37,514 nucleotides of DNA from a virus, in IMG/VR virus record IMGVR_UViG_3300033144_005032, positions 1 through 37,514 of that record, one strand, 5' to 3'. Made by a program: the position numbers and the translations under genes. Shown here one piece after another: positions 12,610-33,866 of this stretch (its first letter is position 1; each line of letters opens with the position of its first letter). A model generated the notes under the pieces. That model did not search any database, was not told where the DNA came from, and worked only from the letters and a program-made list of their open reading frames with translations.

Positions 12610-13761
12610 ATGTCTATTTCTAAAGTGATCGTTGGCGAAATTGGTGGAAAAAACGACGAAGTCCAAGAATCCATTCTTTCCCTATCCACAAGCCTCACAA
12701 CAGACCTCACCTCCGAAATCAAATTCACGATCTTCGATCCAGGGTTTAAAATGGTGAACGCTGGCTACTTCCTGATCCGTCGACCCGTCGCATATGCTGG
12801 CCTGAATTTCGAAATCAGTTCAGTTGAAGTCGACCGCAAACCGAAAACCCCCGACACGGTCAAACTGTTTGCGCGAGGTGCCGCCGTACAGAAAATGAAA
12901 CGAGACAAGGGCTCAACAAACTTCGGAAAGATATCCCCATCCACATTTGCTCAACAGAAAGCGACAGAATTCGGCATCGGAATTTTCGCCGAAGGGTCAG
13001 CAGCGAAAGCAGCCATTACGAGAACCCACGACGAAAACTCAGACGAATCCACGTGGGACGTCATGAACCGTCTCGCTGGCGACAACGAGTTCATCACGTT
13101 TGAAACGGACGGAATCCTTTACTTCGCGTCTGAAAAGTTCATCATCGAAAACCAGACCGGCATCGCCTTTAATCCGTTTACACAAAGCGAAGGTGATGCT
13201 TGGTATGTCCACGAGTTTCGTGCGCACAGGTCTGACGATGAGCCAATGGGGTTCGACATCGACTTCTCTGTAAATAGAACAAACGGCAAGCAGTTGAGGC
13301 CAGGGATGGTTGTCCGGTTCAACGGACTAAAGACTTACGACAAGCCAGCAATGATTACGTCTGTAGAATGGGACGAAGTTGGGTTTGACGACGGACTCGG
13401 CGACGCTAAACCTGATCCTGTTCGTGTGAATGCCCGCACACCTGAAGACAATGAGGATGTTGGTGCGGAGACGAAGTCGCAGAAGACGGGTAGCCGTGGC
13501 GACGACGTGTTGAGGCTTCAGCAGGCTTTGGCATCTGCTGGGTATAGTCCAGGGCCTCTCGATGGTATTTTTGGTCCGAAGACAAGAGCTGCTGTGGAGC
13601 GTTTTCAGGCTGACAAAGAGTTGCCGGTCACGGGCATTGCCGACCCGGCAACATGGGAAGCACTTGGGGTGGTGACGGGCGCAACGCTGGCCGCGACGCA
13701 AAGCTCTACGACACTGAACGCGGCGCAACGCGAGGCGGCACGAGCTTCGTGGGACGAATAG
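12610..13761 (+). CDS. Baseplate hub (gp27/gpD-like) with C-terminal peptidoglycan-binding domain
   Basis: Encodes 383 aa from the ATG at 12610, 2 bp after the previous stop. Residues 1-285 have the hub layout of the phage late control D / T4 gp27 family: 'ITSVEWDEVG', 'DESTWDVMNRLAGDNEFITFETDGILYF' (a very typical hub segment) and 'LRPGMVVRFNGL'. Residues about 290-355 form a PG_binding_1 three-helix domain ('SRGDDVLRLQQALASAGY', 'GPLDGIFGPKTRAAVERFQ', 'ADPATWEALG'). Such a domain targets the murein layer and fits a Gram-positive host. The protein ends in 'NAAQREAARASWDE', nearly the same C-terminus as the tape measure. A catalytic murein hydrolase domain was not found. Confidence 0.85.
   Translation: MSISKVIVGEIGGKNDEVQESILSLSTSLTTDLTSEIKFTIFDPGFKMVNAGYFLIRRPVAYAGLNFEISSVEVDRKPKTPDTVKLFARGAAVQKMKRDKGSTNFGKISPSTFAQQKATEFGIGIFAEGSAAKAAITRTHDENSDESTWDVMNRLAGDNEFITFETDGILYFASEKFIIENQTGIAFNPFTQSEGDAWYVHEFRAHRSDDEPMGFDIDFSVNRTNGKQLRPGMVVRFNGLKTYDKPAMITSVEWDEVGFDDGLGDAKPDPVRVNARTPEDNEDVGAETKSQKTGSRGDDVLRLQQALASAGYSPGPLDGIFGPKTRAAVERFQADKELPVTGIADPATWEALGVVTGATLAATQSSTTLNAAQREAARASWDE
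13717..13761 (+). other. C-terminal NAAQR...ASWDE motif of the hub
   Basis: Second occurrence of the C-terminal motif described for the tape measure, after the peptidoglycan-binding domain and a Thr/Ala-rich linker. Confidence 0.6.
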
Positions 13762-13770
13762 GTACCGACA

Positions 13771-14562
13771 ATGACTAACCGATCTACATTCTCCAAATCA
13801 TCATCAAGATATCGGCCCCCTGCTGGCGTATATGCGGCACAGGTGTCACAAGTCGACGGCTTGAATGTGTACATCACTGTGCCTCGGCTTACGAAAGAAT
13901 TCGAGCACGGCCCAATTGTTTATACCGGGACAGTGCCGACGGTAGGCGACTTTTGCTTTGCCCACTTCCTCGAAGGACGTCAAGATGATGTCGTTGTCAT
14001 CTTCCCTGGAGGTGGCGGGAGTGCAGGCCCGATCGAGCCAACATTCTTTGTATGCGCCGACTCTGAAAGACAGGGACTTCAGGCAGTGGCCGACTATGTT
14101 TCCCCAGCCGCAGCGAACCAGACAATCCACGACGCGTGCCTTGCCCTTCCCTCGGGAGGCGGAAAGGTGCAGTTGAGTGCGGGCAGGTTCATCCTGTCTC
14201 CCCCAACTGCTGGCACTGTCAACGAATACATTTCTTTGTACGATAACAGCACACTGGAAGGCGTTGGGGGTGCTACGATCCTTGAAGTCAATCCGCTGGC
14301 ATCCGGATGGCAATACGGCATATATATGGCAAACTATTCGCAAGTAAAGAACCTGACTATTGATTTCACGAACGCAGCAAATCCTGGTTGCTACGGCATT
14401 TATGCTGACGGGAATAACGGACTTATCGAGAACGTCACCTTCATCGGAATGGACGCGGCGGACCAGGAAGACCTCTATTACGCATTGGTTGACTGGGGTT
14501 CTAAAGCCGTGAATTGCCGCTTCCTCAACCTATCCGGACAGGTATCGCCGCCATCAACATAA
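13771..14562 (+). CDS. OB-fold baseplate spike with N-terminal part of a beta-helix
   Basis: Encodes 263 aa. Residues 18-90 resemble the OB-fold of gp5/gpV-type spike proteins: 'RPPAGVYAAQVSQVDGLNVYITVPRLT', 'VPTVGDFCFAHFLEGRQDDVVVIFP'. A Gly-rich linker follows, then from residue 105 a pectate-lyase/glycan-degrading start: 'AANQTIHDACLALPSGGGKVQLSAGRFIL', 'STLEGVGGATILEV', 'VKNLTIDFTN', 'GLIENVTFIG'. The helix has only a few coils when the frame stops after 'NCRFLNLSGQ'. The coils appear to continue in the gene at 15001, in the same frame, with a different small gene in between. It may be a split gene or the first of two interacting proteins. Confidence 0.75.
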   Translation: MTNRSTFSKSSSRYRPPAGVYAAQVSQVDGLNVYITVPRLTKEFEHGPIVYTGTVPTVGDFCFAHFLEGRQDDVVVIFPGGGGSAGPIEPTFFVCADSERQGLQAVADYVSPAAANQTIHDACLALPSGGGKVQLSAGRFILSPPTAGTVNEYISLYDNSTLEGVGGATILEVNPLASGWQYGIYMANYSQVKNLTIDFTNAANPGCYGIYADGNNGLIENVTFIGMDAADQEDLYYALVDWGSKAVNCRFLNLSGQVSPPST

Positions 14563-15008
14563 TGTCACGAATCATCATTGTTTCCAAAGGCGGATACGAC
14601 TCCGCACTTCTTGAATATGGGGAAGTCGTTGTCTCTCCAGCCGTGCTTATGGATCATTCCGACGGCAAGAGGCTCGGTCGGAAACATTTGGGCATTTTGC
14701 GTGCAATGGTTGCTGCCGTGGAAGAAGCGGACCCTGGAGACCTCATTATGCAAGACGACATGTTCCTTGCTTCAGACCCTTTCAGGGAAGTTGCGCCGCT
14801 AGGGACGATCCGCACTTTGAACGAGCCGACCGCCGGAGGGCGACACTTCTGCCCACGCGCCTTCATCATTTCTGATGAAGAGATTAAGGTAGAGCTGTTG
14901 GAAATGTGGAGAATCGAAGAGTTGCGTTCCTGTTTGGCTTGGAGCGGAATAGAAAAGGTGTACGACTATACCCCTGCTTTCCACACGGGGGTAGCCTCTC
15001 ATGGCTAA
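14562..15008 (+). CDS. Small glycosyltransferase-like protein inserted in the spike locus
   Basis: Encodes 148 aa. An N-terminal strand 'RIIIVSKGG', then 'LGRKHLGILRAMVAAVEEADPGDLIMQDDMFLASDP' at about residues 38-74: a helix after a conserved His, then an acidic DDM triplet after a hydrophobic strand. This resembles the DxD region of GT-A glycosyltransferases, including short versions I recall from actinophages. 'RTLNEP' and 'RHFCPRAFIIS' follow. At 148 aa it is minimal for a GT-A domain. Start and stop overlap the flanking beta-helix genes (TAATG; ATGGCTAA), so translation is probably coupled. It is all-alpha/beta in style, unlike its neighbours. Enzymatic activity and substrate are unproven; a divergent non-catalytic protein is possible. 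Confidence 0.45.
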   Translation: MSRIIIVSKGGYDSALLEYGEVVVSPAVLMDHSDGKRLGRKHLGILRAMVAAVEEADPGDLIMQDDMFLASDPFREVAPLGTIRTLNEPTAGGRHFCPRAFIISDEEIKVELLEMWRIEELRSCLAWSGIEKVYDYTPAFHTGVASHG

Positions 15009-16671
15009 CTACGGTTTACATATGTGGGAAGGTAGCGCTGAGGGATGCTATTTTGAAGCGGGTGTCGAGGACCCATGTTCCGGGGTCCCAGCTTTTGACA
15101 CTATCGGCATTTACACAGAAGGCGACGAAATCCTTGTGGATGGGAACAAATCCCAATATGCGCACTTCATATTTTCTGGCACAAACAACATAGTCGCGTC
15201 GAACAACCATATGCGTGGTGCCACCACTATCATCGACTATTGCTATAGCGTGACGCTTTCGGGGAACCATTTCGAGGGACTCAAGTACGCTGCGGGCGAG
15301 CATCCGTCCAATGTCGGGATTGTGGATAGCAGCGTAAACGTCGACATATCTGGAAACACGTTCTTTAACTACGGCACTTCGCTGGTATTCCATTGGAATT
15401 CCTATAACAACGAGTTTACGATTGTTGGCAACCAGTTTTCTGGTAGTGATGGCATTTTGATGAACGGTCCGTGGGACAAGACTTCGTTTCGGCTTGAAGG
15501 GTTTGTCATTAGCGGTAACGAAATGACGAACAAGTGGACTAGCGAATCCAGTCCACGAATCAATCTTGGCGGTTTCGGGTACGATGCCGAAGTTTCTCAC
15601 GGGGTAATTTCGAATAACTCTATAGCGAACAACTTCGAACCAGAATCACTCATCACTATAACGAATAGAGAAAACTCTTCCGATGGTGGAGTCAGGATTT
15701 CTGATAACACTTTGCACGGAACGGGGTCGCCGCGTCCGACTGCTATTACGATCTACGCCGAAGTGGGTTTCGGAGAGGGAGTTGGGCAAAACTATGTCAT
15801 TTCGAACAACGACTGTGCCGGAACGGAAGGAATCGTTATTTGGGGTGGCCAATCGGCACAGATAACAGACAACATTTTTCCCCAACCCATTGGTACTGAC
15901 GAATACTATGCAGACCAAGTCATTGGCCAGATCGTCGCATGGGGGCAGGACTTCGCTCTAGTCAAAAACAACCACATATCTATCGGAAACAAAACAAACT
16001 CCCGCTACGGAGAGACTGCCGTCATTCGCGTCAATGCCAACAAGGGCGTCATTTCTGGCAACACGATAGAAGGCCACATCATTACTGACGAGTGGGAGAG
16101 TACAGTAATTGATACTGCAATAAGGCTACAGAACGGCGCATACACCATCACCGACAACCACTACCTGGGTGTCGGGGAGCGCTGGGCAGCGACGAAAGAC
16201 AGGCTATGCAACGGACTTGTCGTCACCGGAGCCGATTCGGTAGTCGGCACAAACGGAATGAACATGGACTTCTCCGGCGCAACAAACGTCACCTACCTCG
16301 ACTCCAAAGAAATCATGGCGTCGAAGGAAGGCACTATCGGCGTAACGGGTGGAGCCCTCAGGGTTCCATTCCGACAGAACGCAAAGATTATCTCCGTGTC
16401 GGCAATGGTTGATACTGCACCAACAGGCGCTTCACTAATAGTTGACCTCATAGACAGTGCCGGGACAACAATGTTCACGACGCAACCGAACCGTCCAACT
16501 ATCCTGGCAACACAAAACATGTCCGACGAAGAAGTACCCGATGTTACCGATGTCGACGCGAACTCTTACGTGATAGTGCAAGTAGACCAAATAGGGTCTA
16601 CAGAACCAGGCCAAGACCTGACGGTACTTATTCGTTGGCACCCACGGTTCGAATGCGAGCCAGAAGAGTAA
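15001..16671 (+). CDS. Right-handed beta-helix tail spike, C-terminal part
   Basis: Encodes 556 aa. It begins directly in beta-helix coils ('GLHMWEGSAEGCYFEAG', 'FIFSGTNNIVASNNHMRG', 'SVTLSGNHFEG', 'VDISGNTFFNYG', 'GVISGNTIEGHII'), about 15 or more turns with N/G-rich corners, without the capping N-terminal region expected for a free pectate-lyase-type protein. From about residue 440 a beta-sandwich domain follows ('EGTIGVTGGALRVPF', 'TAPTGASLIVDLIDSAGTTMFTT', 'ANSYVIVQVDQIGST'), common at the end of phage tail proteins. Such spikes bind or cut surface polysaccharide. It is in the same frame as the spike gene ending at 14562, supporting an original single gene of about 820 aa. GGGGGT lies upstream of the ATG. 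Confidence 0.8.
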   Translation: MANYGLHMWEGSAEGCYFEAGVEDPCSGVPAFDTIGIYTEGDEILVDGNKSQYAHFIFSGTNNIVASNNHMRGATTIIDYCYSVTLSGNHFEGLKYAAGEHPSNVGIVDSSVNVDISGNTFFNYGTSLVFHWNSYNNEFTIVGNQFSGSDGILMNGPWDKTSFRLEGFVISGNEMTNKWTSESSPRINLGGFGYDAEVSHGVISNNSIANNFEPESLITITNRENSSDGGVRISDNTLHGTGSPRPTAITIYAEVGFGEGVGQNYVISNNDCAGTEGIVIWGGQSAQITDNIFPQPIGTDEYYADQVIGQIVAWGQDFALVKNNHISIGNKTNSRYGETAVIRVNANKGVISGNTIEGHIITDEWESTVIDTAIRLQNGAYTITDNHYLGVGERWAATKDRLCNGLVVTGADSVVGTNGMNMDFSGATNVTYLDSKEIMASKEGTIGVTGGALRVPFRQNAKIISVSAMVDTAPTGASLIVDLIDSAGTTMFTTQPNRPTILATQNMSDEEVPDVTDVDANSYVIVQVDQIGSTEPGQDLTVLIRWHPRFECEPEE

Positions 16672-16702
16672 ACATGAGTGCCCAAACGAATCAGGAGACT
16701 GC

Positions 16703-17098
16703 ATGAATATAACAAAAAATCGCCCCACTGCCGACGAACTCGTCGCCGTATCGAACAAACCCAAAGCCAAGTGGGAAGGCATCCTGAAGGGGTCCGATGT
16801 CTTCATATCGGCGCGTGACGACGACGACGCGTTGATCGGGTTCGTGCACGGGCATGGTGACTCTGAGTCGTGGACGTTGGAACGGATTTGGGTCGCGACG
16901 GACTACCGTGGGCAAGGTATTGGGAGGGCGATGCGGATTCGCTGTATCAAGGAATGTGAGAAATTCACTGTCGGTAACGGCGTGATTCGCGGATTTTCGA
17001 CCGATGAGGCGGCACCGTTTTGGGATGCTTTCGAAGATACCAAAGTGAAGAAGGGTTTCATTGGTGAACGCCACATTAGGGGAACTCCTAAGAGGTGA
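16703..17098 (+). CDS. GNAT-family N-acetyltransferase
   Basis: Encodes 131 aa. Motif A is clear: 'LERIWVATDYRGQGIGRAM' (about residues 55-73), where RGQGIG is the R/QxxGxG/A acetyl-CoA pyrophosphate loop, preceded by 'DALIGFVHGHGD' (beta 4) and followed by a helix 'RIRCIKECEKF'. The C-terminus 'EAAPFWDAF...KKGF' fits the GNAT end ('FY...GF'). GNATs move an acetyl group to an amine; the target here is unknown. AGGAG precedes the ATG. Its place between the spike and fibre genes is unusual for an enzyme and suggests modification of virion proteins or of a host surface or defence molecule. Confidence 0.85.
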   Translation: MNITKNRPTADELVAVSNKPKAKWEGILKGSDVFISARDDDDALIGFVHGHGDSESWTLERIWVATDYRGQGIGRAMRIRCIKECEKFTVGNGVIRGFSTDEAAPFWDAFEDTKVKKGFIGERHIRGTPKR

Positions 17099-17128
17099 CC
17101 TATTTCTTCAATATTGTAGTCGACGGGG

Positions 17129-17159
17129 TTCTCTGAAACTGGTGTCCATCGTTTAGAAT
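17129..17159 (+). promoter_or_regulatory. Candidate promoter before the discoidin-type fibre gene
   Basis: TTCTCT (17129-17134), 19 bp, TAGAAT (17154-17159). The -10 ends 8 nt before the ATG at 17168, which has no Shine-Dalgarno, so a leaderless message is likely. Confidence 0.35.
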
Positions 17160-17167
17160 CAGTCGAT

Positions 17168-18637
17168 ATGGCGAAAATTAATCTGCAAAGCAACGTCCCC
17201 CTCGGGACGCTAGATGCCGACATCAACGATGTCGTAACGTCTCTTGATGTTGGTGCGGGGGAGGGGGCGTCTTTTCCTGCGGCCCCGTTCGTTATCGGCG
17301 TCAACGGTGAGGCGATGCTGGTTACGGTCAAGTCGACGGATACGTTTACGGTTACGCGCGGGTTTGAGTCGACGACAGCAGCTTCACATACGGCGGCTGA
17401 TACGGTGACTCATGTTCATACGCATAGGAATCTGTTGCCGCGTGACGACACTTCCGGCAGTTATCTTCTGGAGACAGACCTGGATTTGAATGGGTTCGAA
17501 ATTGTTGGTCTCTCGGATTTGCGTCCGACAGGTGGGGCCACCGGGGAACGGCTCGCCAAGGTATCTGCCACCGATCATGACACCGAATGGGTAGACCCGT
17601 CACTAGAGCTTGGTGGCTTGCAGGATGTAGACCTCGTTACCACAACACCGTCTACGGGGGAAGTCATAGAGTTCCTTGGTTCGTCCCATGTGCAACTCGA
17701 CCGCAGCGGCTGGACCTGTGACGCTTCGAGCTTCAGGTTTGGCACTATCTGCGCCGACGTTATCAACGACGACCCAGAACGCTGGTTGAGTGATTCGGGG
17801 GGGACACAGTGGTGGAAAGTTGACCTCCAGACACCACAGAAGGTGAACCGTTTCAGGTATGAGAATTCCGGGTCACCCTATGGCTCCAATGGGGGCAACC
17901 CGATTCTCATCCAGTCCTCTGATGACGATTCGGATTGGACGACGAGGTACACCATAAACAGCCCGGTGTACAGCACGGACTATGTGCAGGCGATATCCGA
18001 AGTAACGGCACGTTATTGGCGGTGCTATCGGGTTGGTACCATGGGCATCGACGAGTTCTATCTGTACTTCACCACCGACACTTGGGCCAACCGGCCACCG
18101 TCACCCCTGACTACGAAGGGCGACGTGTACGGGTATGACACGGGTGATGCTCGGCTACCTGTCGGCACGGATACACACGTTCTGACTGCCGATTCTGCTC
18201 AAGCGTTGGGTGTCAAGTGGGCTGCTGCTCCTGTTGGAGCCTTTCCCCTGTCCGGACATTGGACATTTCGTACAGACACCGGGTCTTCGCCAACTAGCGG
18301 CAGGCTTCATATGGATAACGTTACGACAGCGTCCGTAACGAACCTTTACGTCCACGAGCTTGACATTGAGGGTGCTGATCGTACTCTGATTTTGGGTGAG
18401 CTTGCTGACGGACAGAATGTGTATGTTTGGGATTCTTCTAGCGCAGGGGATGTTGTTCATTTCCTGGTAGATGATGCGCCGTCTGTTGCTTCGAACGTCT
18501 GGACGATTCCGGTAAGATATGTTCTTGCTGACGGAACCACGCCTTGGTCTCAGGACACTGCTGTGGCGTTTGCGTTCGTCGGAGACGACCCGCACTCGGC
18601 GGTTAAAACCCTAACTCTCATGCTTGGAGGTATGTGA
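17168..18637 (+). CDS. Tail fibre/adhesin with discoidin (F5/8 type C) domain
   Basis: Encodes 489 aa. N-terminal module (1-95) is the common phage tail-protein start: 'MAKINLQSNVPLGTLDADINDVVTSLDVGAGEGASFP', then 'VTRGFESTTAASHTAADTV'. Residues about 175-300 have an F5/8-type C lectin-like fold: 'WWKVDLQTPQKVNRFRYENSG', 'IQSSDDDSDWTTRYTI', 'ARYWRCYRVG'. These domains bind glycans or membranes. Then comes the frequent fibre motif 'LTTKGDVYGYDTGDARLPVGTDTHVLTADSAQALGVKW' (in pieces around 315-355) and a terminal beta domain. No ribosome-binding site is visible. Its role is probably recognition of the host surface. Confidence 0.8.
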   Translation: MAKINLQSNVPLGTLDADINDVVTSLDVGAGEGASFPAAPFVIGVNGEAMLVTVKSTDTFTVTRGFESTTAASHTAADTVTHVHTHRNLLPRDDTSGSYLLETDLDLNGFEIVGLSDLRPTGGATGERLAKVSATDHDTEWVDPSLELGGLQDVDLVTTTPSTGEVIEFLGSSHVQLDRSGWTCDASSFRFGTICADVINDDPERWLSDSGGTQWWKVDLQTPQKVNRFRYENSGSPYGSNGGNPILIQSSDDDSDWTTRYTINSPVYSTDYVQAISEVTARYWRCYRVGTMGIDEFYLYFTTDTWANRPPSPLTTKGDVYGYDTGDARLPVGTDTHVLTADSAQALGVKWAAAPVGAFPLSGHWTFRTDTGSSPTSGRLHMDNVTTASVTNLYVHELDIEGADRTLILGELADGQNVYVWDSSSAGDVVHFLVDDAPSVASNVWTIPVRYVLADGTTPWSQDTAVAFAFVGDDPHSAVKTLTLMLGGM

Positions 18638-18966
18638 TGGCCGAAGCATTCAAAGTACTTGGACAGTCAACCCCGTCAGCGACCACACTCACTGACGTCT
18701 ATACGGTTCCGTCTGTCACGTCGGCTGTCGTTTCGACGATCACGGTATGTAACAGGTCGGGGACAGCTACGTCGTTTCGCATTTCTGTGGCCCCTACTGG
18801 TGCTGCCGACACGGATGCCCATTACTTGTATTATGACGTTGCGATTGAGGGCAATGATACGTTTGCGGCGACTCTTGGGTTGACGCTTGCTACTACTGAT
18901 AAGGTTCGGGTTTATGCGACGTTGGCGACGTTGTCGTTTTCTGTGTTTGGGTCGGAGGTTACCTAA
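18637..18966 (+). CDS. Small beta-rich virion protein, 109 aa
   Basis: Encodes 109 aa from the ATG at 18637, which has GGAGG six nt upstream; a GTG one codon earlier is less likely. The pattern 'FKVLGQSTPSATTLTDVYTVPS', 'VSTITVCNRSGTATSFRISVAPTGAADT', 'HYLYYDVAIEGNDTFAATLGLTLATTDKVRVYA' is a beta-sandwich found widely among phage tail clusters. Function unknown; probably a decoration or fibre-associated protein. Coupled to the preceding and following genes. Confidence 0.75.
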   Translation: MAEAFKVLGQSTPSATTLTDVYTVPSVTSAVVSTITVCNRSGTATSFRISVAPTGAADTDAHYLYYDVAIEGNDTFAATLGLTLATTDKVRVYATLATLSFSVFGSEVT

Positions 18967-19356
18967 ATGGCGCAGAAGTTTACTAGGACCGGATTCGCTC
19001 TCGGCGTTGAAGCCGACATTTCTAGAGAAACTACTTGGGCCGACTCGACCAATCCCCTAACCGTAACAACAGGCACTTTGCATCGGATTTATGCTACATA
19101 TGATCGCAGCATCTCTAGTGTCCACGCCTCCGTATCCGTACCCAACTCAGGCGGCACAACAACTTTCGATATTAAAACGGACGGCACCACCATACTTTCA
19201 TCCGACCTCACAATTGCCGACACGAATTACGAATCAACGGTAGTTACTCCCACAACAACCGATTGGGATGATGGCTCATATTTGACTGTAGAGATAACTG
19301 GCGTCACAGGTGGAGCAGGGATGGCTACCGTAGCGATTGAGTGGAGTAGGAGATAA
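18967..19356 (+). CDS. Small beta-rich virion protein, 129 aa
   Basis: Encodes 129 aa starting directly after the previous stop. Alternating hydrophobic strands ('LHRIYATYDRSISSVHASVSVPNSGG', 'TTFDIKTDGTTILSSDL', 'GSYLTVEITGVTGGAGMATVAIEWSRR') fit a jelly-roll such as those in phage fibre-tip proteins. No conserved catalytic residues. Likely a structural partner of its neighbours; no specific family recognised. Confidence 0.7.
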   Translation: MAQKFTRTGFALGVEADISRETTWADSTNPLTVTTGTLHRIYATYDRSISSVHASVSVPNSGGTTTFDIKTDGTTILSSDLTIADTNYESTVVTPTTTDWDDGSYLTVEITGVTGGAGMATVAIEWSRR

Positions 19357-19360
19357 GGAC

Positions 19361-20347
19361 ATGGCCCTTTTGTATTTTGACAATTTCGATGATGGCTTGA
19401 AGCTCTTTCGGGGTTTGACCAATAATAGTGCCGACTTCAACACAAGCCATGGGCGTAACGGTGGTATTGGTTTTAGGGCAGGCGATCAGTACAACGATAA
19501 CGTGAGGGTTGATGTTGTTCCGGGTGATGACACAATAATCTTGGGGTTCTGGCACAGAATCTTTAGTGGTCCAGAGGGTGATGTTCTGGCTAGTTCGCTT
19601 GATTTTACTTCGACCGATAATGGTCAGCAACGAAATCTGATTTGTAATGGCAATACGGTATCCACAGCTTTAGGGCTTTTTGATTACCCTGTATGGGAAT
19701 GGGTGGAACTCAAGATTTACTATCATGCTTCTGCTGGGACTATGGAGATTAGACGTAATGGCGCAACCGTTGCGTCTGACACCGGATTGGATACAGGCAC
19801 CATGCCTGATCCGTTTTACATTACTTATGGCATCACTGGCTCTGCTGGTGTTAATGGCGTAAGCTTTACGACCCTTTACATATGCGATGGTACGGGTTCC
19901 TACAACAATGATTTCCTTGGTGAAGTTGAGATAGTGACCCTGTATCCCTCTGGAAACGGGAATTCTTCTGGCATGGTGGGGTCGGATGCCGACCAGACGG
20001 ACAACTATTTGCTTGTAGATGAGGTTGGCGATCCATCAAGCACTGATTATGTGGGGTCTTCAACAGAGGGCGATAAAGACACCTACGCAATGGATGATTT
20101 AACTGGATCACCCGACATCCTTGCAGTACGAGTTTCGCTATTTGCGGGGAATGACGACGCAGGCACCAAATACATACGTCCTCTTGTGCGTACAGCATCA
20201 ACCGATTATGCCGGTACGTCTGTTCCCCTATCTACCGAATATGCGGGAGTGGATGGGTTGTATGAAGAGAATCCAAATTCTTCAGCAGCATGGACGGCGA
20301 GCCAAGTAAATAGCATAGAGGTTGGTCAGGAAGTTAGGGACTCATGA
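19361..20347 (+). CDS. Lectin-like (concanavalin/LamG fold) tail protein
   Basis: Encodes 328 aa from the ATG at 19361 (GGAG...AAGGA upstream); the longer frame has no ribosome-binding site. Residues 1-205 look like a concanavalin-A/LamG fold: 'LYFDNFDDGLKLF', 'IILGFWHRIFSGP', 'WEWVELKIYYHASAGTMEIRRNGATVAS', 'FTTLYICDGTGSYNNDFLGEVEIVTLYPSG'. The second half ('DNYLLVDEVGDPSSTDYVGSS', 'GDKDTYAMDDL', 'ILAVRVSLFAGNDDAGTKYIRPLVRT') is a module often joined to it in phage tail proteins. Probable glycan-binding receptor protein. Overlaps the next start by 4 bp. Confidence 0.75.
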   Translation: MALLYFDNFDDGLKLFRGLTNNSADFNTSHGRNGGIGFRAGDQYNDNVRVDVVPGDDTIILGFWHRIFSGPEGDVLASSLDFTSTDNGQQRNLICNGNTVSTALGLFDYPVWEWVELKIYYHASAGTMEIRRNGATVASDTGLDTGTMPDPFYITYGITGSAGVNGVSFTTLYICDGTGSYNNDFLGEVEIVTLYPSGNGNSSGMVGSDADQTDNYLLVDEVGDPSSTDYVGSSTEGDKDTYAMDDLTGSPDILAVRVSLFAGNDDAGTKYIRPLVRTASTDYAGTSVPLSTEYAGVDGLYEENPNSSAAWTASQVNSIEVGQEVRDS

Positions 20348-20547
20348 CTGAGGCACGATCAGCACGAACATCTGTACAAACTGTTGGTTCCTTCTCAGAT
20401 GTAGAGGCCACTTCAGCACGAACATCTGTACAAACTGTTGGTTCCTTCTCAGATGTAGGGGCCACTTCAGCACGGACGTCCGTGATGGTAATTTATCGAC
20501 CTCCCCCTATCAAGCCGCTCGGGCCATGGGATATCATACCTATTTGA
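20344..20547 (+). CDS. 67-aa protein with 18-residue tandem repeats
   Basis: Encodes 67 aa, starting inside the stop of the lectin-like gene. It consists of an 18-residue unit ('SARTSVQTVGSFSDVEAT') present twice with a third, cut copy, then a Pro-rich end ('YRPPPIKPLGPWDIIPI'). Similar ARTSVQ segments occur at the C-termini of phage lectin-like tail proteins, so this may be a detached tail of the preceding gene or a small linker. Function unknown. Confidence 0.6.
   Translation: MTEARSARTSVQTVGSFSDVEATSARTSVQTVGSFSDVGATSARTSVMVIYRPPPIKPLGPWDIIPI
20359..20480 (+). repeat. 54-bp tandem repeat (two full copies plus a partial)
   Basis: Copies start at 20359, 20413 and 20467, exactly 54 bp apart. 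The first two are nearly identical over their length, indicating a recent duplication or gene conversion; the third matches for about 14 bp. Confidence 0.9.
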
Positions 20548-20557
20548 AGGATGATCT

Positions 20558-23203
20558 ATGACTTGGGTGCCCGTTTTAGCACCACCATTAGGCGGATTCC
20601 TTCAAGAAGATTCTGACCTTACACAAAACGTAATCCTTGGTCTGCTTGACGCGTCCCCGACCTTATATCAGCCGCAAGTAAACCTGTCGATCGCTTTCGG
20701 CCTGCTAGACGCGTCGCCAACAATTCACGAACCGACACAGCTATGGAGAACGGTCGACGTTCCGACAATCGGTGCCGACACAACCATCTTTGCGCCATCC
20801 TTTGACATCACGGTCAATCCGCCACTCCTCGACGGAGCGGCGACATTCTACGAACCAACAATGGTCCCAGGCCAGGTCGCCGTCGTTGCCTCCCTCATCG
20901 CATCGGCACACGTCGTGCACGAACCAACCTTCGTTCCGGGCTCCGTCACTATCGTCGTTGACTACTTGGCTGCGGCGTCGATCGTCTATGCCCCCACGTT
21001 TGACATAACAATCGACCCACCACTTCTTTCCACAACAGCAACCGTTTACCAGCCGACAGCGCTGAAGTCTGACTATCCAATCGTCGTTTCGCTACTTAAT
21101 GCATCAGCAACGGTTTATACACCAAGCACGTCTATCGAGATCGCCCCACCACTCGTTGCACCCACGATCACGCTGTACCAACCAACGCTTGTTCCGGGAT
21201 CGGTTACGATCACCGTTCCGCTGATAGATGGTTCAGCAACTTTCTACGATCCGGTTATCCAATCCGGTACGTTCACTGTCGTCGTTCCGTTCCTCGACTT
21301 GAACATAACACCAGACACGCCAACGCTTGTGCAGGAACAGTTCATCCTTCCGGTACTGATCAACGCTTCCGCAACGCTATTCCAGCCGACAGCTATCCGG
21401 GATGCGTTTTTGGACATTCCGTGGATTGCCGCATCGACACAAGTATTCCAGCCAATAGCTGCAACTTCCGTGAACGTCACAATGGCCCTCATCTCGACGC
21501 CAGCTACGATACGTCAGCCAACTGCCATCAAGCTGCCATACAACGTCGTCACTCCGCCTGTGGGGCCCTCAGCGCTCGTTTACGAGCCTTCTACGTCAAC
21601 TACGTACAACGTTACCCCTGCGTTGCTCGACGCTTCTGCGGCGATCCTAACGCCACTAATTGATACAACAATCGACGTGCCAATCCAGCTTCTCGACGCG
21701 AACCCGACCATTCACGACCCAACAATGGATCAATTCAATGTCATCATCGTACCGTGGCTTAACGTCGGCACCCAATACCACACACCAATAATGGCAGCTG
21801 GAGACGTAACTGTCACACCTCCGTTGATCTCGGCAGAAACTGTCGTACATCAACCGACAATACAAACAAGCCTGAATGTAGCGATGCCCTTCATCTCAAC
21901 AGAGACAACACTGTCCGAACCGACGTTCGCTCTATCCGTAACAATCGACACAGAGTTCATCAACAATGCACCAACCGTGTATACGCCGACCACCGATGCG
22001 GAAGACCTCACTACGGGTTGGTATGTCGGGTTTATTCCCATTTCTGGCGAAATTTGGGTAGAGGGAGAGATTTGGGCACCGTACCTGGCTTCGCTCGCAA
22101 CGATTTTTGCCCCATCTGTATTTGCAGTTGTAACACAGCCCATCTCGGCACCGCACCTGGCTTCACTTGCGACGATTCTTGTCCCATCTGTAGTTGCAGT
22201 CGTGACACAATTTATCTCGGCGTCACATCTAGCCGTAACACCACTAGTACATGCTCCCGTCGTTGGCGGACCGTCGACACAGGCTATTGCTCCACCAAGA
22301 ATCGTGGTGCCCGTTTTGACTTATTTGCCAACCATCAGCCAGTCGGGTGGAAGTCCGGATTGGCCAGACGCCTTCATGTCTTACCCCGCACAAACAGCTC
22401 CGATTGTTTTGGACGGGGAATCCGACGTGACGATTGAATACCTCTCTTTCGAAAATTTCTACCGATCAACCGGGCGACCAATCACGCTCTACAATTGCGA
22501 CAACATCACCATTCGCCGCATCGACACACGTGGCTGCACTATGGGGCTGGTTTTTGCACTCGAATGTACCAACCTCACCATCGAGTACTGTCGCGCCGAA
22601 AACATAGCTGAAGAGTTCAGGGGCCAAACGCTCAACGTCGACTTTTCAAACGAGAACGACTGCAACTTCTACCAGCTCGACAAGTGCGACGGATTCTTGA
22701 CCCACCATCTCAAAGGAAGGTACGGTAATACCGAAGACGTTTTCTCTCACTATATGTCGAAAAATGGCAACGTAAACGATATCCAGTGGGAAGGTGGAAT
22801 TTCTGAAAACCAACCGACTTCAGATGGCTCCCCCTCTACTCCCTGGACCTCGGACTCCAACACAGGCCTGATTCTTGGCGACGGAGACGGAGACAATGTA
22901 ACAGTCACGAACTCCACGTTCCTCAACCCAGGACAGGTCGGGCTGGCAATTGCGGGAGGAGGAAACAACACGTTTGACAACTGCGTTGTGTATCACGAAA
23001 ACACGAACCAGCCAATAAACACCGCAGCCTACGTCTGGGGTCAGTACTCGTACTGTTCGAACCACGCCATGACTAATTGTCGTGGCGAATTTGAGCAACA
23101 CGGTGGATTCTGGAACGGCGGGAACTGCGGAACCGTGAACACAAACGGATCAAATTTTGAGGACAGCAGCCTCAACAAGGAGGATTACCGAGTTACGTTG
23201 TGA
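20558..23203 (+). CDS. Repeat-rod tail protein with C-terminal beta-helix
   Basis: Encodes 881 aa. From about residue 25 to 590 it is made of some 25 degenerate units of about 22-27 residues with the core 'LLDASATVYxPT' (hydrophobic pair, D/N-A-S/T, strand, Pro). From about 600 to the end is a beta-helix: 'SDVTIEYLSFENF', 'NITIRRIDTRG', 'LTIEYCRAENI', 'DNVTVTNSTFLNPG', 'NNTFDNCVVYHEN'. The order suggests a long shaft carrying a spike-like tip that recognises or degrades surface glycan. A GAAGGA site precedes the ATG. The same repeat is found in two other proteins of the window. Repeat fold and function of the shaft are inferred. Confidence 0.75.
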   Translation: MTWVPVLAPPLGGFLQEDSDLTQNVILGLLDASPTLYQPQVNLSIAFGLLDASPTIHEPTQLWRTVDVPTIGADTTIFAPSFDITVNPPLLDGAATFYEPTMVPGQVAVVASLIASAHVVHEPTFVPGSVTIVVDYLAAASIVYAPTFDITIDPPLLSTTATVYQPTALKSDYPIVVSLLNASATVYTPSTSIEIAPPLVAPTITLYQPTLVPGSVTITVPLIDGSATFYDPVIQSGTFTVVVPFLDLNITPDTPTLVQEQFILPVLINASATLFQPTAIRDAFLDIPWIAASTQVFQPIAATSVNVTMALISTPATIRQPTAIKLPYNVVTPPVGPSALVYEPSTSTTYNVTPALLDASAAILTPLIDTTIDVPIQLLDANPTIHDPTMDQFNVIIVPWLNVGTQYHTPIMAAGDVTVTPPLISAETVVHQPTIQTSLNVAMPFISTETTLSEPTFALSVTIDTEFINNAPTVYTPTTDAEDLTTGWYVGFIPISGEIWVEGEIWAPYLASLATIFAPSVFAVVTQPISAPHLASLATILVPSVVAVVTQFISASHLAVTPLVHAPVVGGPSTQAIAPPRIVVPVLTYLPTISQSGGSPDWPDAFMSYPAQTAPIVLDGESDVTIEYLSFENFYRSTGRPITLYNCDNITIRRIDTRGCTMGLVFALECTNLTIEYCRAENIAEEFRGQTLNVDFSNENDCNFYQLDKCDGFLTHHLKGRYGNTEDVFSHYMSKNGNVNDIQWEGGISENQPTSDGSPSTPWTSDSNTGLILGDGDGDNVTVTNSTFLNPGQVGLAIAGGGNNTFDNCVVYHENTNQPINTAAYVWGQYSYCSNHAMTNCRGEFEQHGGFWNGGNCGTVNTNGSNFEDSSLNKEDYRVTL
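20630..22335 (+). repeat. About 25 degenerate LLDAS-type coding repeats
   Basis: Coding repeats of roughly 66-80 bp. Mostly diverged at DNA level, except a recent 72-bp duplication at 22085-22228. Confidence 0.8.
22085..22228 (+). repeat. 72-bp tandem duplication within the repeat rod
   Basis: Two neighbouring copies (22085-22156 and 22157-22228) encode 'LASLATIFAPSVFAVVTQPISAPH' and a closely similar unit, with a high DNA match. Points to recent unequal recombination inside the repeat array. Confidence 0.7.
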
Positions 23204-23245
23204 ACTAACCCACGCTCGCTCACCCTTGGACTAATCTGTAAGCGC

Positions 23246-30512: not shown

Positions 30513-33500
30513 TCATCGGTTCCGAACTAGGACACTCTCGGTGTGTGTTTGGGCAATGCCCATTGTCTTTTTGTAGTCTTGCCTGATGCCCATTCTGAAC
30601 GCGACGATCTCAAGGGCTGCTTCTAGCGTAACCGCTGGGCCCCACACCGTGATGATGCCACCGATTGTCGGAACGTCGATTCCGCCACCCTGTCTCGGCT
30701 CGTGGATGGTCGGTGGCGTGTTGAGCAACGGAACCTGAATGTAAACTTCGCCTGTTGTGATGACGGGTTCGCGAACTTGCCCAACCTGAATGGTTGGTGG
30801 CGTGATTTGGAGCGCATCGAAGGATGGCGTGTGGACAGTCGGTGTTGCGTCGATCGAGGGGATTTGGACTGTAACAGTTGTAGTAATTGACGGTTCGTGA
30901 ACTTGTCCGACATTGATCGTTGACGGCTCAACTGTTATAGAAGTACTGAGCGTCGGGTCGTACAGTGTCGCCGATACATCAACCACTTCGACCTCAACGG
31001 AAACCGTGGGTTGAAGCGTCGGATCATATAGCGTTGTAGTCGCGCCAACGAGCGGTACCGTGATGTTGTGCGTTGAGTAGACGACAAGGTCGAGAACTGT
31101 CGCAGAAGCATCCAGCAACGGAATGGCAATGGTGCCTGCCGTCGAGATTCCTGGGTCGTGCAGCGTCACTGACGCGTCGAGCAGGTTTACAAGAACGAAC
31201 TGGTCTCCGATGACAACAGGTGTATGGAAAGTCGCAGAAGCATCCAGCAGGGGAACAACCACATCGACGATTGCATATACAGCGGGGTCGTGGATGGTCG
31301 CCGCGACGTCGATTGTTGGTGGTTCAATGGAGCTGGAAGCGTCGAGAGTTGGAGTGTAAACTGTTGGTGCGACATCAAGTAGCTCGACTGGTAGCGTCCT
31401 CCAGAGCTGTGTCGGCGAATGCAGTGTCGCGGACGCATCGAGGACGTCTGGGATGATGTAGGCCGCAGTGGTAAGTGTCGGATCGTAGAGGGCCGCTGAT
31501 GCGTCAAGCAACCCAACAGATACAACCATGTTGACGGTCGGGTCGTACAGCGTTGCTGAAGCGTCAAAAACTGGCGGCTGTACCGTGATGTCAAACGCTG
31601 GTGCATGGATCGTGGCCGAAGCATCAAGCAACGGAACATGTAGGAGGTGGTAAATCTGTGTCGGTGGGTACAGCGTCGGAGATGCATCAATCGTTGCGAA
31701 CTCGATTTCACGCTGAACAGACGGCAGGTAAACCTGACCAACCTGAATGACATCTGGTGTGATGTAATTCGTGAGAACAAGTGTCGGTTCGTGTAGTGTC
31801 GCCGAAGCGTTAAGTAAGTCGAGACTGACATTTTGGATAATGTTCGTCGGTGCGTGAAGCGTCGGCGACGCGTCGATGGACGGAACGACCACGTCGACCG
31901 TTGAGTAAACAACAAGGTCGTGCAGCGTCGGCGAGGCGTCAATTACTGGTGGAGCGACTGTGCCCGCGGTGTCGATCCCCGGCACGTGAATCGTTGCCGA
32001 CACATCCAGCAAATCAACGAAGACGTACTGGTCGGTGAATATGACCGGATCATAGAAACTGGGCGACGCATCAAGGTGATCGACGTGAATAGTGGAATCT
32101 GTCGATGGTGTGTAGATCGTTGCAGAAGCGTCAAGCAACCCTACGGGTAGTGTTCTCCAAAGTTGTGCGGGCTCGTGAAGCGTTGCCGAAGCGTCCAACG
32201 TTGCAGGGGTGATCGCTGCTTGTACGGACGGCGAGTGCAGGGTTGCGGCAGCGTCGAGAACGGGAATGTATAGGAGGTGGTAAATCTGTGCTGGTGCGTG
32301 CAGGGTTGGTGACGCATCGAGGTGGTCGATCGGTGCGTCGATCGTTGCTGCCAGTGTCGGGTCGTAGAGAGTTGCTGATGCGTTGAGAACGTTCGGGTGA
32401 ACGTTGCTGACCGTTGTTGGTGAGTGCAGCGTCGGTGTTGCGTTGATGACGTCCGCGAATGTGACTGCGTATGTTGGTGCGACAACTGGTTCGAGGACAG
32501 AGCCAACAGCGAGGAGCGGCATCGCGACGGCGACGGTGGCATAGAGTGTGGGATCAGAGACTGTCGCAGCAGCCGCCAAAAGCGGCACGACAACGGTGAC
32601 CGCACCTCGCTGAATCTGGGGATCGTAGAATGTTGGTGCCGCGTCAAGGAGCGGCGGATCAATTTGTGACTGTTGTGTGGGTGCATAGACTGAAGTCGGA
32701 TTCGACAGTAACGGAAAGTACAAAACGTGATAAAGCTGTGCGGGCTCGTGAAGCGTTGCCGAAGCGTCCAACGTTGCAGGGGTGATCGCTGCTTGTACGG
32801 ACGGCGAATACAGGGTTGCGGCAGCATTGAGAACAGGAGGGTGCAGAACGTGGAATAGTTGTGACGGGGCGTGTACTGTTGGCGATGCATCAAGTAGTGG
32901 CACGGGCACGTCAACGGATAGAGCAAGGGTCGGCTCTCCTATGGACGGCGCTTGATCAATCCACGGAATATCGAGTATGTGGTAAAGCTGTACGGGTTCA
33001 TGGACAGTACCGACGTTGAGAACAGGAATGTCGAGTATGTGGTAAAGCTGGGCGGGTTCGTGGATAGTTGGGGAAGCGCCTAGTAAGCCTGGTGTAACAA
33101 ACTGCTCTTGAGCCAAGGTTGGTTGATGGATCGTTGGGGAAGCGTCTAGGAGGCCGACTGGCAGGGTTTGCCACAACTGTGTCGGCTGGTGAATCGTTGG
33201 GGACGCGTCAACGATTGGCGGCGTGATCGTGTTGATCGTGCCCAGGCTTGGTTCGTGAATGACAACACCGACATTGAGTACCGGAATCCGCAGAATGTGA
33301 TAAAGCTGAACGGGTGCGCGGATAGTCGGGCCAACGTCAAGTAGTGGCGCAACAACGACAACCTGTCCTGGAGCCATCGTGGGTTCGTGAACCGTTGGCG
33401 ATACGGCTACGAGCGGAATCGTTACATTGTACGATGCGGCGATGGTCGGCTGGTAGGGAGAAGCCGTCGAGTCGATGTGCGGCAGCGTGATGTCGTATGA

Positions 33501-33866
33501 AGCAGCAAGGGTCGGTTGCTCTACGGCGGCCGAAGTATCCAGCAATGGAATATGCAGAATGTGATTGATCTTTGTCGGTGCCCAAATGACCGGGTTCACC
33601 GTAAGGAGCGGGACCTCGACAATACCAGTAACGTCTACGGTTGGTTCGTAGAAAGAAGGCGACGCATCCAGTAGTGGTACGTGGATGTAGCTGTCGGCTT
33701 CGGGTGTGTGGAGGGCTGCCGACGCATCAAGGAGCGGCGGCGTGATCGTGGCTTCCGCCAGCGAGGTGGGTTCGTGAACAACAACACCCACGTTAAGGGT
33801 CGCGGGCGCGACGAAATCTGCCCTAAGGGGCCTTGGGAGGATGAACGGGATAGCGGTATTGGCCAC
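30513..33866 (-). CDS. Giant LLDAS-repeat fibre protein, about 49 repeats
   Basis: Encodes 1117 aa from a GTG with AGGCGG five nt upstream. After 17 residues ('MANTAIPFILPRPLRAD') it is an almost unbroken array of about 49 units, mean length 22 residues: about 6 variable, hydrophobic/Pro ('xxVPLLDASATLHxPTxx'). The last 45 residues differ ('TLEAALEIVAFRMGIRQDYKKT') and are helical and charged. Each unit has two short strand-like segments bounded by Pro, so a beta-solenoid or a trimeric beta-spiral rod is a reasonable guess; this is inference. It would make a long rod on the tail. The codon-level repeats are partly near-identical (71 bp). No enzyme motifs, no Cys, few charged residues. It lies between a coiled-coil gene and the BppU-like gene. 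Confidence 0.7.
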   Translation of the reverse strand: MANTAIPFILPRPLRADFVAPATLNVGVVVHEPTSLAEATITPPLLDASAALHTPEADSYIHVPLLDASPSFYEPTVDVTGIVEVPLLTVNPVIWAPTKINHILHIPLLDTSAAVEQPTLAASYDITLPHIDSTASPYQPTIAASYNVTIPLVAVSPTVHEPTMAPGQVVVVAPLLDVGPTIRAPVQLYHILRIPVLNVGVVIHEPSLGTINTITPPIVDASPTIHQPTQLWQTLPVGLLDASPTIHQPTLAQEQFVTPGLLGASPTIHEPAQLYHILDIPVLNVGTVHEPVQLYHILDIPWIDQAPSIGEPTLALSVDVPVPLLDASPTVHAPSQLFHVLHPPVLNAAATLYSPSVQAAITPATLDASATLHEPAQLYHVLYFPLLSNPTSVYAPTQQSQIDPPLLDAAPTFYDPQIQRGAVTVVVPLLAAAATVSDPTLYATVAVAMPLLAVGSVLEPVVAPTYAVTFADVINATPTLHSPTTVSNVHPNVLNASATLYDPTLAATIDAPIDHLDASPTLHAPAQIYHLLYIPVLDAAATLHSPSVQAAITPATLDASATLHEPAQLWRTLPVGLLDASATIYTPSTDSTIHVDHLDASPSFYDPVIFTDQYVFVDLLDVSATIHVPGIDTAGTVAPPVIDASPTLHDLVVYSTVDVVVPSIDASPTLHAPTNIIQNVSLDLLNASATLHEPTLVLTNYITPDVIQVGQVYLPSVQREIEFATIDASPTLYPPTQIYHLLHVPLLDASATIHAPAFDITVQPPVFDASATLYDPTVNMVVSVGLLDASAALYDPTLTTAAYIIPDVLDASATLHSPTQLWRTLPVELLDVAPTVYTPTLDASSSIEPPTIDVAATIHDPAVYAIVDVVVPLLDASATFHTPVVIGDQFVLVNLLDASVTLHDPGISTAGTIAIPLLDASATVLDLVVYSTHNITVPLVGATTTLYDPTLQPTVSVEVEVVDVSATLYDPTLSTSITVEPSTINVGQVHEPSITTTVTVQIPSIDATPTVHTPSFDALQITPPTIQVGQVREPVITTGEVYIQVPLLNTPPTIHEPRQGGGIDVPTIGGIITVWGPAVTLEAALEIVAFRMGIRQDYKKTMGIAQTHTESVLVRNR
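32164..32234 (-). repeat. 71-bp exact repeat, copy A
   Basis: Identical to 32737-32807, and the match continues with few changes for about 20 bp more. Both copies encode 'ITPATLDASATLHEPAQL'. Confidence 0.9.
32737..32807 (-). repeat. 71-bp exact repeat, copy B
   Basis: Second copy of the 71-bp block, 573 bp from copy A, same orientation and frame (573 = 191 codons). Recombination between them would remove or add about nine repeat units without a frameshift. Confidence 0.9.

Follow-up and report, generated by a model that had tools for sequence, protein, structure and literature searches.

Genes in pieces have been described in several phages, among them nrdA/mobE of Aeh1, the topoisomerase/mobA locus of T4 and gene 43 of phage 25 (PMC2988022), and for Aeh1 nrdA and phage 25 gene 43 the divided products were shown to function jointly (PMC2988022). 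These cases are the nearest known parallel to the arrangement proposed for the locus reported here: in them a small gene has entered another gene, intact in related phages, and left it as two reading frames. On the other hand, those cases concern enzymes with a homing endonuclease as the insert, whereas here the divided gene would encode a structural spike, the insert has no recognizable similarity to nucleases and joint function of the products would be a prediction. Phage gene fission by insertion is already known for enzymes, and its occurrence in a spike would be unusual; a title-level literature search, partial in coverage, found no beta-helix spike divided in this way.

Proteins comparable to parts of the locus are known as well. 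Contractile-tail Arthrobacter phages and their uncultured relatives carry fibre-extended OB-fold proteins in the same slot behind the tail hub (Hirko gp22, ArV1 ORF022 and a 973-aa ORF of the uncultured relative L111); each is one uninterrupted ORF with an unrelated fibre part, whereas here there are two ORFs (products P1 and P3) with a gene (P2) between them. The minor tail proteins of Streptomyces phages (WRightOn gp41, Stella gp40 and LuckySocke gp12) have a cap that P1 residues 92-179 resemble, in an order of anchor, cap and body, but they are single chains with a different anchor and no detectable similarity to P3.

The window analyzed here, i.e., the whole 37,514-nt stretch of IMG/VR record IMGVR_UViG_3300033144_005032, is from an uncultured virus of bacteria and shows a contractile-tail gene order: sheath, tube, chaperone, tape measure, LysM-type protein, hub and then P1-P2-P3, with a gp25-like wedge and baseplate J further on. 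By sheath comparison the nearest isolated phages are Gordonia myophages (36-39% identity), followed by Arthrobacter phages, and 80 uncultured relatives with sheath identity of 42-53% were included in the comparison. The features of the locus are as follows (+, forward strand):

12610..13761, +: tail hub with a C-terminal peptidoglycan-binding region (likely start ATG 12610; homologous to hub/minor tail proteins of Gordonia, Brevibacterium and uncultured phages)
13771..14562, +: P1, putative first spike piece, 263 aa, with an OB-fold anchor, a beta-helix cap and about four rungs, ending at a rung boundary
13771..14037, +: OB-fold domain serving as the anchor of P1 (matched by same-slot OB genes of relatives at E values as low as 3e-18)
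14044..14307, +: putative cap at the N-terminal end of the beta-helix, P1 residues 92-179 (WRightOn gp41, 37% over 90 residues; profile match)
14542..15006, +: putative inserted segment, probably spanning these 465 bases, a number divisible by 3 (borders taken from rung phase only)
14562..15008, +: P2, 148 aa, between the spike pieces, with the motif HLGIL...QDDM (ATG 14562; open frame and coding score)
15001..16671, +: P3, putative second spike piece, 556 aa, a capless beta-helix beginning on a rung, then a C-terminal domain
16339..16635, +: C-terminal domain of P3, approximately residues 447-545 (phrog_27064, E 1.4e-6; fibre proteins of other phages)

The first-pass annotation had described three ORFs joined by start/stop overlaps, with P1 and P3 in the same frame, and all of this was borne out, coordinates included: the stop of P1 and the start of P2 share one base (TAATG), and P2 and P3 overlap by 8 bases. 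The common frame of P1 and P3 contains six stops between 14560 and 14992, and the P2 frame is open over 14505-15005. Codon usage favors the annotated frames: scores trained on the window's other genes were +0.135 for P1, +0.09 for P2 and +0.177 for P3, negative values were obtained in the other forward frames, and the favored frame switched near 14500-14560 and near 15000. The overlaps suggest that the P1-P2-P3 run is probably translationally coupled; no obvious Shine-Dalgarno sequence precedes P2, and a G-run lies about nine bases upstream of P3. An Rfam search found no intron.

Two artifactual or unconventional origins of this layout were weighed. The arrangement is known from a single record and might be an assembly chimera; yet GC, GC3 and codon usage show no break over the three genes (GC and GC3 also being in line with the neighbors), a random join would be unlikely to produce overlapping starts and stops and to preserve the frame, and the repeats near the insert borders are weak, chance-like matches, which makes a chimera highly improbable. 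Alternatively, the locus might encode a single polypeptide in which P2 is a domain in a beta-helix loop, with the frame changes representing programmed frameshifts or two indel errors, and the frames do overlap in a manner that would permit this (P1 and P2 both open over 14505-14559, P2 and P3 both open over 14995-15005). Such a product would need two separate shifts in opposite directions, however, and we consider it very unlikely: no slippery sequence was seen in 14505-14559, the sole homopolymer close to the second border (GGGGG, 14987-14991) is followed by a P3-frame TAG at 14992, and start codons stand exactly at the gene overlaps.

P1 residues 1-90 are a tail-tip OB-fold, as had been proposed: homologues occupy the same post-hub slot in dozens of relatives, with approximately 43% identity to the ORF after the hub in L032. 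The adjoining putative cap matches intact minor tail proteins of Streptomyces phages (E 0.02 collection-wide, 1e-7 pairwise), which are 421-611 aa long and of which the 605-611 aa members end in an apparent beta-sandwich head, as read from their sequences. In P1 the anchor and putative cap are followed by neither a head nor a recognizable C-terminal cap, and the protein ends 15 residues past a rung anchor. The earlier claim that it terminates in the middle of a beta-helix was upheld in part: judged by the motif, the stop falls at a rung boundary, while the beta-helix itself is suggested by a weak but specific cap similarity, the count of P1's own rung motifs being non-significant against shuffles.

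P3 is the complement of this arrangement, with rungs and a head but neither anchor nor cap. Its beta-helix is strongly indicated by the Asn-ladder: 13 such motifs were seen versus 1.19 expected, none of 5000 shuffles reached 13, and the rung anchors lie 20-34 residues apart. The first residues are already on a rung, in agreement with the proposal that P3 begins in mid-helix without a cap. The single-sequence AF2 model of P3 was of low confidence and unusable; a Foldseek search with this poor model returned trimeric beta-helix tailspikes in its top rows (best E 0.05, non-significant but consistent). The Asn-ladder and these non-significant rows from a low-confidence model suggest the general fold of Phi92 gp150 and the Sf6 tailspike, which differ from the present case in having one polypeptide per subunit.

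How the two products would fit together was assessed at the break, with rungs assigned by eye from the motif rather than from a structure. With N248 as the final rung anchor in P1 and G15 as the first in P3, direct joining would yield a rung of 30 residues; trimming the join to Q257/N3 would yield one of 22. Because both lengths fall inside the observed range of 20-34, the break appears to lie in a turn between rungs, the rung phase being indicated by the motif only. Pfam, PHROG and PDB searches with the joined P1+P3 sequence gave no match spanning the junction, and the profiles of the Streptomyces proteins matched the P1 cap and did not bridge it.

The same slot was then compared among relatives. 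An OB profile recovered 50 ORFs from the relatives' loci (several being copies of one record); these encode the OB domain alone (82-173 aa) or fused in frame to further sequence. In the closest relative (L032 and L111, one record) the slot holds a single OB-fibre ORF with a Peptidase_G2 C-terminus, which stops 55 bases short of the wedge gene; in about 20 further records there are closed one-piece OB-fused genes of 253-827 aa, several with S74, C1q or collar domains. Neither a split OB gene nor P2 was found in any of the relatives' loci examined. P1 departs from this pattern of OB alone or OB plus fibre in one ORF, the helix and head sequence being present only in P3. Since the fibre parts of the relatives' OB genes are not homologous to P1 or P3, these genes demonstrate the rule of the slot and not the ancestor of this spike. 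Moreover, in searches of phages, viral contigs and genome contigs with P1, P3 and the joined sequence, similarity was confined to the OB domain, the cap and the C-terminal domain, and no intact homologue of the beta-helix came to light. The expectation of one uninterrupted gene in related phages was confirmed for the OB-fibre (in the closest relative and the ~20 records) but not for the same beta-helix; homologues that are always separate and complete, which would have spoken for two independent genes, were likewise not encountered, although no homologue with either helix half in full was found. Wider sampling of relatives could put the question to the test, given a fixed slot whose anchor domain carries very different fibres from one relative to the next.

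This comparison also bears on the possibility that nothing was split at all, i.e., that P1, made up of the OB domain and a short helix with its cap, is a short tail-tip protein complete in itself and P3 a separate neighboring fibre, with P2 simply located between them. Short OB proteins of 253-280 aa do exist among relatives (L017, L020, L054 and L096), and this phage has several other fibre-like genes in its hub-to-wedge region. Against two independent genes, P1 stops with neither head nor recognizable C-terminal cap, P3 starts on a rung lacking anchor and cap, and exactly one rung results when the ends are combined; we regard separate genes as rather unlikely, though the most serious of the alternatives.

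The reading that we favor, and deem probable if only just, is that one spike gene was split by insertion and that its two chains reassemble rung-to-rung. Several considerations argue for the split: i) the OB anchor sits in a fixed post-hub slot where relatives have one-piece genes and no split or P2 cases; ii) P1 has no head and P3 neither anchor nor cap, whereas the uninterrupted proteins that carry this cap measure 421-611 aa; iii) the joined ends form a 30-residue rung; iv) P1 and P3 share a frame, adjoin P2 through the TAATG and 8-base overlaps, and all three genes have native codon usage. Others weaken it: i) the collections searched yielded no intact homologue of the beta-helix, and the fibres of relatives are non-homologous; ii) short OB proteins of 264-266 aa do occur (L054 and L096); iii) the helix motif of P1 is non-significant and no family matches the joined sequence across the junction; iv) a common frame of P1 and P3 has a 1 in 3 chance; v) the AF2 single-sequence models are unusable. 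For the ancestral spike of about 820 aa put forward in the first-pass annotation, the comparison with relatives, the break at a rung boundary and the normal length of the joined rung thus count in favor, while the intact ancestor was not found.

Under a split by insertion, the ancestral gene, of about 810-820 aa, would have encoded a tail-tip OB anchor, a beta-helix cap, the beta-helix and a C-terminal head. A segment of about 465 bases carrying P2 would have entered at the turn between two rungs, and the starts and stops of the halves form an overlapping run that is probably coupled in translation. The two chains would most likely meet rung-to-rung and rebuild one spike on the tail tip, probably as trimers. 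The evidence for fission is stronger than that for reassembly; we infer the ancestral P1-P3 fusion, the coupling, the non-covalent reassembly and the trimer from the features above. If true, the beta-helix fold can be built from two chains and a receptor-binding protein has a natural split point, which would bear on how tailspikes acquire loops and inserted modules.

Although the letters HLGIL...QDDM are present in P2, its assignment to the GT-A glycosyltransferases was not sustained: Pfam (up to E 10), NCBIfam and PDB sequences gave no GT-A match, the best PHROG value was 0.022 to a family of no assigned function, and tblastn gave no significant relative. Relatives of P2 were found in none of the phages, viral contigs, genome contigs and plasmids searched, and profile searches detected no homing endonuclease or other nuclease family. 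The protein carries QDD as a DXD-like candidate, and its single-sequence AF2 model (pLDDT 36) is unusable. The order of its motifs is reminiscent of GT25-type enzymes, and a sugar-transferring activity is possible, although no profile, sequence or structure search supports it. Most likely P2 is a passenger gene, tolerated owing to its position in an inter-rung turn. A bolder version, in which the two chains form a tailspike with one continuous helix stacked rung-to-rung and P2 acts on or within the spike (e.g., modifying it during assembly), seems to us improbable.

The fibre-like genes downstream raise the further possibility that the insertion inactivated the spike gene, which is now in decay, with receptor binding taken over by other fibres (17168-23203), of which one has an F5/8-type domain and one a beta-helix. 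A decaying gene would be expected to gather stops; the two halves are instead long and open, their starts and stops overlap, codon usage remains of the coding type right up to the borders, and decay accordingly appears unlikely.

The hub-to-wedge interval (13762-23245) measures approximately 9.5 kb here versus one gene in L111, and the slot is expanded with fibres and small enzyme-like genes. Directly 3' of P3, within the spike/fibre region, lies a GNAT acetyltransferase gene (16703-17098, +; PF13508, E 3e-8), and the fibre protein at 17168-18637 (+) has an F5/8-type galactose-binding domain (PF22633, E 1e-12). Two large proteins, at 20558-23203 (+) and 30513-33866 (-), share a repeated 'LLDASPT...PT' pattern; the former has a beta-helix region too (PF13229, E 8e-10), and was ruled out on comparison as an intact paralogue of P1/P3. 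Among relatives, six (L062, L068, L048, L041, L076 and L082) have a conserved gene of 249-252 aa between the OB-fibre and the wedge, whose product reads like a peptidase-type endolysin, and in Arthrobacter phage Jinkies (L029) a gene for an HNH endonuclease lies between the LysM-type and hub genes, on the opposite strand (1204-1785, -). Elsewhere in the window, a DUF6551 protein (1603-2535, -; PF20188, E 3e-15) shows a weak likeness to DndB.
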